From: Nonomuraea jabiensis
GTDB lineage: Bacteria > Actinomycetota > Actinomycetes > Streptosporangiales > Streptosporangiaceae
NCBI RefSeq assembly: GCF_014204795.1
Contig: NZ_JACHMB010000001.1
Location: 7,390,501-7,454,500 of the forward strand
DNA: 64,000 nucleotides
Direction of reading: 5' to 3'
Positions within the stretch are counted from its first letter, which is position 1. The number at the start of each line of letters is the position of its first letter. Under the pieces are notes generated by a model. That model had not been told where the DNA came from and searched no databases. It was given only the letters and a program-made list of their open reading frames with translations. Positions 17,934 to 29,003 of this stretch are shown here, one piece after another. Both the position numbers and the translations under genes were made by a program.

Positions 17934-17952
17934 TTGAGTCGGTATAACTCAA
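17934..17952 (+). promoter_or_regulatory. HAIR box (HspR operator) of lon
   Basis: TTGAGT-N7-ACTCAA is an exact core match to the HspR-associated inverted repeat (consensus CTTGAGT-N7-ACTCAAG); only the two outermost bases differ. It lies 16 bp before the lon ATG and spans a TATAAC that could be the -10, ideal for repression. HspR control of lon is established in Streptomyces. hspR itself is not in the window. Confidence 0.88.
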
Positions 17953-17967
17953 CCCTTTGGAGTTCGC

Positions 17968-20325
17968 ATGAGTGAGAGCCTGATCCTTCCGGTCCTGCCG
18001 CTGGACGACGAGGTCGTCCTGCCGGGCATGGTGGTTCCGCTGGACCTGTCCGACTCCGAGGTGCGGGCCGCCATCGACGCTGCCCGTGCATCCGGTGGCA
18101 ACAAGCCGCGGGTCCTCCTCGTTCCCCGGATCGACGGCCGTTACGGCGCCATCGGCGTGCAGGCCGTTGTGGAGCAGGTCGGGAGGCTGCCGGGCGGCGA
18201 GCCCGCCGCCGTGGTACGGGGCGTCAACCGCGTCCGCGTGGGCACCGGCACGACGGGCCCGGGTGCCGCGCTGTGGGTCGAGGCCGACACGATCGACACC
18301 GTCGCCGCCGGCGAGCGCGCTCAAGAGCTGGCCAAGGAGTACAAGGCGCTGGCCACCACGATCCTCCAGAAGCGCGGCGCCTGGCAGGTGGTCGACCAGG
18401 TCAACCAGATCGACGATCCCTCGGTGCTGGCCGACAGCTCCGGCTACACCCCCTGGCTGACCACGGCGCAGAAGGTCGAGCTGCTCGAAGCCGCCGACCC
18501 CGCCGAACGGCTGGCCAAGCTGGTCGAATGGTCCCGCGAGCACCTCGCCGAGCTCGACGTCGCCGAGACGATCCGCAAGGACGTCCAGGAGGGCATGGAG
18601 AAGCAGCAGCGCGAGTTCCTGCTGCGCCAGCAGCTTGCCGCCGTGCGCAAGGAGCTCAAGGAGCTCAACGGCGACACCGGGACCGAGGAAGAGGACTACC
18701 GCGCCCGCGTCGAGGCCGCCGACCTGCCGGAGAAGGTGCGCGAGGCCGCGCTCAAGGAGGTTGACAAGCTGGAGCGGACCTCCGACCAGTCCCCTGAGAC
18801 CGGCTGGATCCGCACCTGGCTCGACACGGTGCTCGACATCCCCTGGAACGACCGTACCGAGGACAACTACGACATCACCGGCGCGCGGGCCGTGCTCGAC
18901 GCCGACCACACGGGCCTGTCCGACGTGAAGGACCGCATCATCGAGCACCTGGCCGTGCGCAAGCGCCGCCAGGACAAGGGCCTCGGCGTGGTGGGCGGCC
19001 GCCGCAGCGGCGCCGTGCTCGCCCTCGCCGGCCCTCCCGGAGTCGGCAAGACGTCTCTGGGCGAGTCCGTGGCCCGCGCGATGGGCCGCAAGTTCGTACG
19101 CGTCGCGCTCGGCGGCGTGCGCGACGAGGCCGAGATCCGCGGCCACCGGCGCACCTACGTCGGCGCGCTGCCCGGCCGCATCGTCCGCGCCATCCGCGAG
19201 GCCGGCTCGATGAACCCGGTCGTCCTGCTCGACGAGGTCGACAAGGTCGGCGCCGACTACCGCGGCGACCCGACGGCGGCCCTGCTGGAGGTGCTCGACC
19301 CGGCCCAGAACCACACCTTCCGCGACCACTACCTCGAGGTCGAGCTGGACCTGTCCGACGTGCTGTTCCTGGCCACGGCCAACGTGCTCGAGGCCATCCC
19401 CGGGCCGCTGCTCGACCGGATGGAGATCGTCACGCTCGACGGCTACACCGAGGACGAGAAGGTCGCGATCGCCCGCGACCACCTGCTGCCCCGGCAGCTG
19501 GAGCTGGCCGGGCTGAGCGCCGAGGAGGTCAAGGTCGAGGACGACGCGCTGCGCAAGCTGGCCGGCGAGTACACCCGCGAGGCGGGCGTCCGGTCGCTGG
19601 AGCGCTCGGTCGCCAGGATCCTGCGCAAGGTGGCGGCCAAGGACGAGCTGCCCGTCACGGTCGGCGAGGGCGACCTCGTGGGCTACCTCGGACGGCCGCG
19701 GTTCGTGCCGGAGTCGTCGCTGCCCGAGTCCACCCAGCGCACCTCGGTGCCGGGCGTGGCCACGGGCCTGGCGGTCACCGGAGCGGGCGGCGACGTCCTG
19801 TACGTCGAGGCGTCCATGGCCGACCCGGAGACCGGCGAGACCGGCCTCACGCTGACCGGCCAGCTGGGCGACGTGATGAAGGAGTCGGCCAGGATCGCGC
19901 TGTCCTACCTCCGCTCGCACGGGGCGGAGCTGGAGCTGCCGGTCACAGCGCTGAAGGACCGCTCGGTCCACGTCCACTTCCCGGCGGGCGCCGTGCCCAA
20001 GGACGGCCCCTCGGCCGGTGTGACGCTGACGACCGCGCTGGCCTCCCTCCTGTCGGGCCGGCTCGTACGCAGTGACGTGGCCATGACCGGCGAGATCTCC
20101 CTGACCGGGCGGGTCCTGCCGATCGGCGGCGTCAAGCAGAAGCTCCTGGCCGCCCACCGGGCGGGCATCACGACCGTCCTCATCCCGGCCCGCAACGAGC
20201 CGGACCTGGACGACGTGCCCGAGGAGGTCCGCAAGGAGCTGACCATCCACACGGTGAGCGACGTGCGCGAGGTCCTCGACATCGCGCTGACCCCGGCGCA
20301 GGTGGCCGCCACGGCCGCCGCCTAA
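17968..20325 (+). CDS. lon: ATP-dependent protease Lon
   Basis: 785 residues. N-terminal substrate domain begins [23 protein letters not shown]+ Walker A is [13 protein letters not shown] and Walker [12 protein letters not shown]. The protease domain has catalytic Ser682 ([10 protein letters not shown]) and Lys725 (GGVKQK), at the same 43-residue spacing as in E. coli. Lon degrades misfolded and short-lived regulatory proteins in the cytosol. ATG preceded by TTTGGAG. An HspR box overlaps the promoter, so heat shock or DnaK titration should induce it. A 40-bp palindrome lies 13 bp after the stop and may serve either as terminator or as fic operator. Confidence 0.97.
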
Positions 20326-20337
20326 TCAGGGCATAAG

Positions 20338-20377
20338 TGGGCGAATCATTCAGTCATTTGACTGGATGATTCGCCCA
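20338..20377 (+). promoter_or_regulatory. 40-bp near-perfect inverted repeat between lon and fic
   Basis: Two 19-bp arms (left begins TGGGCGAATCAT) match at 18 of 19 positions around a 2-bp centre. No T-run follows, which argues against a simple terminator. TTGACT (20358-20363) inside the right arm is 17 bp from TGTCAT (20381-20386), which would start transcription at the fic ATG. The palindrome would thus be an operator over the -35. The Fic protein carries a C-terminal winged helix and could bind it itself. Confidence 0.65.
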
Positions 20378-27148: not shown

Positions 27149-27324
27149 GGGCGTTTGTCAACCGCCCATACGCTACGGTCGTCCGGCAGCCAGTCGGCAG
27201 TCGCGAGAGTGAGCCCCCTCCTCCCAGGTGGGGGCAGTTGGCCAAGCAGAAGTACGGTGGCGACTCATGCCGCTGCGAAGTGACGAGGCTTCCGGATATC
27301 TCGACGACCGAATAGTGTTCGGCC

Positions 27325-28860
27325 ATGTATCCGGGAGCCATCGCAGCAGTCACCCCAGACAAGCCCGCTGTGATCATGGCGGGCTCCGGACGGATCATCA
27401 CCTACCGCGAGCTGGACGAGGAGTCCAACCGGCTGGCCCACCTGCTCCGTGCCGCCGGGCTGCGCCCCGGTGACCACATCGCCTTCATGCTCGCCAACCA
27501 CCCCCTCTTCCTGGCCGTCGCCTGGGCCGCGCAGCGCTCGGGGCTGTACTACACGCCGATCAGCTCCCGCCTGCAGACCGACGAGCTGGCCTACATCATC
27601 GACAACTGCGGCGCCCGGGCGTTCATCTCCAGCGCCGACCTGGCCGCCGTCGCCACCTCGGTCACCGCCGCCACGCCCGGGGTCGAGACGCGGCTCATGC
27701 TGGACGGCACGGCCGAGGGCTTCGAGTCGTACGAGGAGGCGGTCGCCAAGCAGCCGGCCACCCCGATCGACGACGAGTGCATGGGCGTGGACATGCTCTA
27801 CTCCTCGGGCACCACGGGACGGCCGAAGGGCGTCAAGATCCCGTCGGCGCACGGCCCGCTCACCGAGCCCGGCACCCTGCTCCAGCTCATCCAGGCGCTG
27901 TTCGCGCCGTCGGCGGACAGCGTCTACCTCTCGCCGGCCCCGCTCTACCACGCCGCCCCGCTGCGCTACAGCCTGACGTTCCAGCGGCTCGGGGCCACGG
28001 TGGTGGTGATGGAGCGCTTCGACCCCGAGCAGTTCCTGGCGCTGGTGGAGCGGTACGGGGTGACGCACGCGCAGCTCGTGCCCACGATGTTCATCAAGAT
28101 GCTCAAACTGCCCGAAGAAACGCGGACAAAGTACGATCTTTCCTCGCTCGCGTACGCGATCCACGCCGCCGCCCCCTGCCCCGTCCCCGTCAAGGAGCAG
28201 ATGATCGACTGGTGGGGCCCGATCATCCACGAGTACTACGCGGGCACCGAAGGCAACGGCTTCCTCTACGTCAACTCTCACGACTGGCTCCGGCACAAGG
28301 GCACGGTCGGCCGCTCCCTGCTCGGCGTCGTGCACATCTGCGACGAGGACGGCAACGACCTGCCCCCGGGCGAGCACGGCACGATCTACTTCGAGAAGGG
28401 CGGCCGGTTCGAGTATCACGACGACCCGGACAAGACCCGCTCCGCGCAGGACCCCCGGGGCAGGGGCTGGACCACGCTCGGCGACATCGGCCGCCTGGAC
28501 GCCGACGGCTTCCTCTACCTCACCGACCGCCGCTCGTACATGATCATCTCCGGCGGGGTGAACATCTACCCGCAGGAGGCCGAGAACGTCCTGTCGGTGC
28601 ATCCGAAGGTGGCCGACGTGGCGGTGTTCGGGGTGCCGGACGAGGAGATGGGGGAGCAGGTCAAGGCCGTGGTCGAGCCGGTCTCCATGGCCGAGGCCGG
28701 CCCGGGGCTGGAGGCGGAGCTGATCGCGTACTGCCGCGAGCGGCTGGCCCACTACAAGTGCCCGAAGTCGGTGGACTTCCGCGAGCAGCTGCCCCGCCAC
28801 CCGACGGGCAAGCTCTACAAGCGCCTGCTCAGGGACGAGTACTGGCCGGCTTCCGGGTAA
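27325..28860 (+). CDS. Acyl-CoA synthetase (AMP-binding, FadD-like)
   Basis: 511 residues. The AMP-binding signature YSSGTTGRPKGVK (about residue 155), A5-type YAGTEGNG, A7 TTLGDIGRLDADGFLYLTDR and A10 PRHPTGKLYKRLL with catalytic Lys are all present. It activates a fatty or aryl acid to acyl-AMP and then acyl-CoA in the cytosol. The 285-bp gap upstream contains the structured element, so the gene probably has its own promoter. Chain length is not predictable. Confidence 0.93.
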   Translation: MYPGAIAAVTPDKPAVIMAGSGRIITYRELDEESNRLAHLLRAAGLRPGDHIAFMLANHPLFLAVAWAAQRSGLYYTPISSRLQTDELAYIIDNCGARAFISSADLAAVATSVTAATPGVETRLMLDGTAEGFESYEEAVAKQPATPIDDECMGVDMLYSSGTTGRPKGVKIPSAHGPLTEPGTLLQLIQALFAPSADSVYLSPAPLYHAAPLRYSLTFQRLGATVVVMERFDPEQFLALVERYGVTHAQLVPTMFIKMLKLPEETRTKYDLSSLAYAIHAAAPCPVPVKEQMIDWWGPIIHEYYAGTEGNGFLYVNSHDWLRHKGTVGRSLLGVVHICDEDGNDLPPGEHGTIYFEKGGRFEYHDDPDKTRSAQDPRGRGWTTLGDIGRLDADGFLYLTDRRSYMIISGGVNIYPQEAENVLSVHPKVADVAVFGVPDEEMGEQVKAVVEPVSMAEAGPGLEAELIAYCRERLAHYKCPKSVDFREQLPRHPTGKLYKRLLRDEYWPASG

Positions 28861-28982
28861 ATTCTCCGCATTTTCTCCTGGCCGTCGCCGGTGGTCCCAC
28901 CTTGGCCGATAAGGCTTCCGTTCACTCTTCTCATGAAGCTCTGATCAGCGGCTTAACCAGCTCTTACGCGTCTCTTGGCACC

Positions 28983-29003
28983 CTTGAGTCATCGGTACTC
29001 GAG
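28983..29003 (+). promoter_or_regulatory. HAIR-like box (HspR operator) before the HtrA-like protease
   Basis: CTTGAGT-N7-ACTCGAG matches the HspR consensus CTTGAGT-N7-ACTCAAG at 13 of 14 fixed positions. It ends 11 bp before the ATG, abutting the ribosome binding site GGGAG, and would repress by blocking transcription near the start. It is the second HspR box in this window. Confidence 0.75.

Follow-up and report, generated by a model that had tools for sequence, protein, structure and literature searches.

A conserved direct-repeat promoter module, and not an HspR operator, probably controls htrA in Nonomuraea

In Streptomyces coelicolor, HspR acts on a minimal operator, TTGAGY-N7-ACTCAA, and its known targets are the dnaK operon, lon, and clpB (PMC2687793). 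The HtrA protease SCO4157 of the same organism is heat-induced and is absent from the HspR targets named in the accessible text of that paper, and it is therefore a precedent for a heat-responsive HtrA without known HspR control. SCO4157 is identical to htrB, which is a target of both CutR and CssR. In the accessible text of the respective reports, CssR controls HtrA proteases in Streptomyces (PMC3498368, PMC12802291), CutR controls htrA3 and htrB (PMC10433416, PMC12802291), and MprA binds the upstream regions of htrA and sigE in Corynebacterium glutamicum (PMC12113857; correction PMC13414042). Even for Streptomyces, CssR is described as having an undefined regulon (PMC12802291). The available portions of PMC6009599 and PMC8079986 contain nothing on htrA, and a search of the literature on Nonomuraea with HspR or with htrA returned nothing related by title. 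Here we analyzed a stretch of 64,000 nucleotides (the window) from Nonomuraea jabiensis, positions 7390501-7454500 of a genome consisting of one contig of 13.17 megabases. The window carries lon and an htrA-like gene, each preceded by a palindrome resembling the HspR operator (HAIR). All evidence in this analysis is sequence-based. We conclude that htrA is probably driven by a conserved CTTAAC-N5-CTTACG promoter, likely switched by a two-component system, and that the HspR-like box in front of it would be an overlap of other signals.

The htrA-like gene (29015..30250) encodes a serine protease of 411 amino acids with a PDZ domain. The product matched Trypsin_2 and PDZ_2, and it matched degP_htrA_DO with an E value of 2e-84, although this match falls short of the cut-off of that model. 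This gene and all features of the lon and htrA regions given below lie on the forward (+) strand. The upstream region of htrA contains a direct repeat with an 11-base-pair period, made up of a first hexamer CTTAAC (28952..28957), which is a predicted response-regulator half-site, and a second hexamer CTTACG (28963..28968). The repeat lies around the -35 region, and the -10 hexamer CACCCT (28979-28984), part of the extended -10 element TGGCACCCT (28976..28984), begins ten bases downstream. Transcription from this element would start at approximately 28991, leaving a leader of ~24 nucleotides.

We then compared this region among relatives. The htrA upstream regions of the genus (79 regions from 54 genomes, many of which hold a lon-linked copy and a paralogue) were read together with 40 regions from 21 other genera, taken from 43 rows of a family search. 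The genus listing comprised 81 htrA copies, from which one at a contig end (L042) and one at a contig start (G010:C97) were left out. The loci similar to the htrA protein numbered 47, with 40 from Nonomuraea, one from [Actinomadura] parvosata, and six distant ones. The repeat was found as CTTA-N7-CTTA in exact register in 76 of the 79 genus upstreams (not in L047, L049, and L067), and every one of these 76 had a hexamer of the form xANNNT placed at precisely +16 relative to the second CTTA. The same was true of all 38 upstreams with the repeat from other genera (19 genera; L197 and L209 are without the repeat). Positions 2 (A) and 6 (T), the most important bases of a bacterial -10 hexamer, are invariant wherever the repeat is present. 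Since the DNA 3' of the -10 element in other genera is unlike that of Nonomuraea, the invariance of the A and T seems to reflect separate selection on these two bases. TG at the extended -10 position was present in about two thirds of the upstreams (52/76 in the genus and 24/38 in other genera). The promoter pattern was loosened once in the course of the analysis: after the upstreams missing the TG had been inspected, counting was done from the repeat alone.

A further conserved element, GATAAGGC (28908..28915), lies upstream of the module. In Nonomuraea and several other genera, GATAAGGC or GATAAAGC is located ~40-45 nucleotides upstream of the CTTA repeat, often with GTCAG next in the relatives, although not in the window. 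Throughout the genome, GATAAGGC-N4-GTCAG gave one exact match, at the htrA paralogue, and four matches at one mismatch, with two for the control.

The specificity of the module was examined in the whole genome of 13.17 megabases. With TG included and at most one mismatch allowed, the module was found at four places, and the control with the backward pattern gave none. The four places belong to the two htrA copies, the gene of an extracytoplasmic function (ECF) sigma factor, and a gene for a protein of 158 amino acids. The product of the sigma gene scored above the cut-off of TIGR02947 (SigH_actino), which assigns it to the SigH/SigR type. Among the 30 best orthologues of the sigma gene from 100 family genomes, a looser form of the module was present in 28, covering 16 of 17 genera, compared with 4/6000 shuffled upstreams; the remaining two carry the module with one base changed. 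The initial protein anchor had given 11/30, as 17 loci failed it, and the count rose to 28/30 after the anchor was changed and the first half-site relaxed. The predicted response-regulator promoter is thus shared by a small set consisting of the two htrA copies and the SigH-type sigma gene. The 158-amino-acid protein (L272:1955-2510) has a probable membrane segment, judged by eye, and no family match; its one-mismatch module begins 79 nucleotides before the ATG. A pattern made of the repeat alone, searched with up to two mismatches, gave eight places, of which the best two were the htrA copies. The other six were regarded as meaningless, with 14 places for the backward control, and this pattern was given up.

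Direct hexamer repeats with an 11-base-pair period that end ten bases before the -10 element are typical of response regulators of the OmpR/PhoB family. The spacing between repeat and -10 element at htrA fits this family, which would put htrA most likely under a two-component system. A regulator of this type may bind CTTAAC-N5-CTTACG at the -35 region of the htrA promoter, and the system would sense envelope or secretion stress, as CssRS and MprAB do. The module also stands before the SigH/SigR-type stress sigma gene, and therefore the same regulator probably joins the control of the surface protease to that of the sigma factor. The wider proposal, that a single two-component regulator, conserved across Nonomuraea and about twenty genera related to it, recognizes CTTAAC/TTAACG-N5-CTTACG and activates both HtrA and the SigH/SigR-type sigma factor, is offered tentatively, at somewhat less than an even chance. 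The very narrow distribution of the module in the genome and its fixed spacing could also be those of a promoter read by an alternative sigma factor, with the CTTA repeat and the -10 element as its two parts and no response-regulator site. The elements of sigma promoters usually lie 16-19 nucleotides apart, and a -10 element of the housekeeping class has an A and a T. The distance between the elements here is 10 or 21 nucleotides, which does not fit the usual spacing, and the -10 element has this A and T, as in the housekeeping class. We regard an alternative sigma promoter as unlikely.

The proposed control of htrA by a response regulator resembles two described systems. In CssRS of Streptomyces (PMC3498368, PMC12802291), as reported in the text available, envelope-facing HtrA proteases are likewise under a two-component response regulator; in contrast, no cssRS genes were present among the few htrA neighbors scanned here, and the accessible text gives no CssR binding sequence with which the box could be compared. 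The available account of the MprAB regulon of C. glutamicum (htrA, sigE, and sigB; PMC12113857) offers a parallel in that one regulator joins an HtrA protease and an ECF sigma gene. However, its published motif, TKTTAAGAAM, is different, and the sigma factor here is of the SigH/SigR type and not SigE.

The first-pass annotation of the window had reported a HAIR at lon (17934-17952) and a second HspR box, CTTGAGT-N7-ACTCGAG (28983-29003), directly before an HtrA/PDZ protease, and had proposed HspR control of both genes. Both palindromes are present at these positions. The box of lon, ATTGAGTCGGTATAACTCAAC, spans 17933..17953 (core 17934-17952) and ends 14 nucleotides before the ATG (17968) of lon (17968..20325), which encodes the ATP-dependent protease La of 785 amino acids (TIGR00763, above cut-off). 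For comparison, 30 upstream regions each of lon and dnaK were collected in a search of 36 Nonomuraea genomes. The published core TTGAGY-N7-ACTCAA was found in all 30 lon upstreams and in 28 of the 30 dnaK upstreams, and the looser core TTGAG-N9-CTCAA in 30/30 dnaK upstreams, with two sites in each and 60 in total. The genome also encodes HspR (116 amino acids; NF047375, above cut-off), and its gene lies behind dnaK and grpE and is read in the same direction. Judged by the core kept in all lon upstreams and the hspR gene in the genome, the lon box is a genuine, ordinary HspR operator, which supports the control of lon by HspR. The lon box, the dnaK boxes, the core, and the position of hspR behind dnaK and grpE are all as in the S. 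coelicolor regulon, as far as the accessible text describes it (PMC2687793). In one genome (G031:C1:8719332-8721687), lon is split into two overlapping frames (residues 1-517 and 513-785), by a frameshift or a sequencing error.

The htrA palindrome, CTTGAGTCATCGGTACTCGAG (28983..29003), differs from the boxes of this regulon in lacking the core and in not being conserved, and htrA is not a target named for S. coelicolor in the accessible text (PMC2687793). It ends 11 nucleotides before the htrA ATG (29015) and agrees with CTTGAGT-N7-ACTCAAG at 13 of 14 positions; the published core is broken at one base, with ACTCGA instead of ACTCAA. HspR binding at 28983-29003 and repression of htrA, perhaps confined to the window species and the species closest to it, would find some support in this near-match. 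At up to one mismatch, CTTGAGT-N7-ACTCAAG occurs at only three places in the genome, namely dnaK, htrA, and a secreted lectin-like gene (dnaK and the lectin recognized by eye), with ~0.3 places expected from the base composition of the window. The site also lies over the predicted transcription start, which would suit a repressor. The two genomes closest by htrA identity, G059 and G066, have a one-mismatch site as well. The arms of the palindrome showed Watson-Crick covariation in the lon-linked group (nominal P 0.02 against a tree-based null), as is also expected of a palindromic DNA site.

The looser core TTGAG-N9-CTCAA was, however, found in none of the 79 genus upstreams and none of the 40 upstreams of other genera of htrA, whereas lon and dnaK keep their cores in all 30 upstreams each. 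With the relaxed S. coelicolor consensus TKGARTNNNYNNRAYTCA and at most one mismatch, 29/30 lon, 26/30 dnaK, and only 2/79 htrA upstreams were matched. Measured against CTTGAGT-N7-ACTCAAG, the htrA upstreams had one mismatch in 3/79, two in 24/79, and three or more in 52/79, and the three closest are those of the window species, G059, and G066. The expectation that related htrA promoters would share the site was therefore not borne out. Within the window, the pattern gave two matches at up to three mismatches against 0.78 expected from shuffles, and since at least two were found in 16 of 100 shuffles, the pair of boxes at lon and htrA is not significant by itself. At three mismatches in the whole genome, the backward control gave more places than the pattern (232 and 112). 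Conservation of the spacer was dropped as an argument against HspR, since the spacer of the lon box shows good conservation too. With the example of SCO4157 added to these counts, HspR action at htrA appears improbable, and the claim that HspR controls this gene is unsupported.

The position of the look-alike relative to the conserved promoter suggests how it arose. Its first two bases are the final two of the -10 element, and from there it runs across the discriminator and the predicted mRNA start into the beginning of the Shine-Dalgarno sequence GAGGGAG (29001..29007), which is a conserved block in relatives. The commonest form of the leader in relatives, CTTGAGTCATCGGGACTTGAG (11/77), has two mismatches, and its right half lies in the Shine-Dalgarno region and is not ACTCAAG. 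A single base change turns CTTGAGTCATCGGGACTTGAG into a one-mismatch site, and two such changes exist; the near-match therefore needs no selection. The htrA palindrome appears to be mostly a by-product of the overlapping -10 end, discriminator, first transcribed bases, and Shine-Dalgarno sequence. Two loci, L056 (G006) and L057 (G031), have an insertion between the -10 element and the start codon, by which the look-alike is lost while the repeat and the -10 element are kept. A third close htrA copy with 82% identity and a divergent leader was found in G059 (C1:2505173-2506396, L150).

RNA thermometers such as fourU and ROSE hide the Shine-Dalgarno sequence, and the palindrome could similarly be a stem in the mRNA that controls htrA translation in a thermometer-like manner. 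This was evaluated with 77 of the 79 leaders; L056 and L057 were omitted here but do enter the counts for the promoter and HspR. In the structures as printed, each of the 77 excised arm-loop segments (~35 nucleotides) formed a hairpin with a 3' arm extending to the Shine-Dalgarno sequence. Native arms folded more stably than swapped arms (mean -10.94 versus -9.39 kcal/mol; 0/20000 permutations; 65 distinct arm pairs), and swapping within groups gave 54/20000 for group A and 56/20000 for group B. The covariation score also exceeded the tree-based null (P 0.0023; Watson-Crick pairs only, P 0.03). On the other hand, the number of paired cells was not significant against that null (P 0.07), and covariation within the paralogue groups was weak (group A, P 0.06, or 0.02 for Watson-Crick pairs only; group B, P 0.27, or 0.70), so that the hairpin signal comes in large part from the divergence of the two paralogues. 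Nine segments compared with shuffles had z-scores from -0.46 to -2.47 (-1.36 and -0.88 for the window), and the hairpin sequence is not retained in the other genera compared. No heat opening was predicted: the computed estimate of the mean unpaired fraction of the Shine-Dalgarno sequence was 0.31 at 28°C and 0.32 at 42°C (0.23 and 0.20 for the window). Among the other leaders compared, that of lon was predicted to be more closed (0.05) and that of dnaK slightly more open (0.37 to 0.46). The conserved -10 element, moreover, places the predicted start inside the loop, and the 5' arm would therefore be outside the mRNA. Weakened by the shuffles, the tree-based null, the melting estimate, and above all the promoter position, the hairpin was kept only as a rival explanation, and we consider it very doubtful. 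An Rfam search of the window gave no match at htrA.

Several points weigh against a response-regulator promoter at htrA, in addition to the rarity of the near-match in the genome, its presence in G059 and G066, and the covariation of its arms in the lon-linked group. No two-component genes were found among the neighbors scanned, which comprised seven window proteins besides a FadD4-like protein, three proteins of L266, and three of L267; neighbor frames without a family match may be wrong frames. The box is unlike the MprA motif of C. glutamicum, given above, and the CutR motif TAWATAAA. The stricter pattern that demands TG was matched in 52/79 genus upstreams and 24/40 upstreams of other genera, with 0/8000 shuffled upstreams. 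The module counts at htrA are confined to family genomes with a close HtrA, which are 47 of the 120 searched. Finally, the promoter is read from sequence, and its start, its regulator, and the binding of that regulator are predicted.

The upstream neighbor of htrA is a FadD4-like acyl-CoA ligase gene (27325..28860; match below the model cut-off), separated from htrA by a gap of 154 nucleotides. A cyclic di-AMP riboswitch (RF00379, 96.5 bits) at 60546-60683 on the reverse (-) strand was the sole Rfam match at the gathering threshold in the window. Furthermore, G000 has a set of palindromes that resemble TGAGTA-N5-TACTCA and differ from HAIR (examples on contig C1 at 2512882, 6691332, 8590414, 10863111, 11301302, and 9006158), and their form suggests an operator of another regulator. 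One of them precedes a secreted lectin-like gene, recognized by eye, in both G000 (L003) and G026 (L019).

If htrA were assigned to HspR, a chance-like match would be the ground for counting a surface protease among the members of the cytosolic heat-shock regulon. The CTTAAC-N5-CTTACG module instead provides a concrete candidate for the operator through which secretion stress would be controlled in this family of antibiotic producers, and from its presence at a SigH-type sigma gene as well, a stress response across compartments is predicted. If this is true, a signal from outside the membrane would raise surface proteolysis and the cytoplasmic thiol/heat-stress program together. Cytosolic and surface protein quality control would then be joined, as the first-pass annotation had hoped, by a regulator other than HspR.

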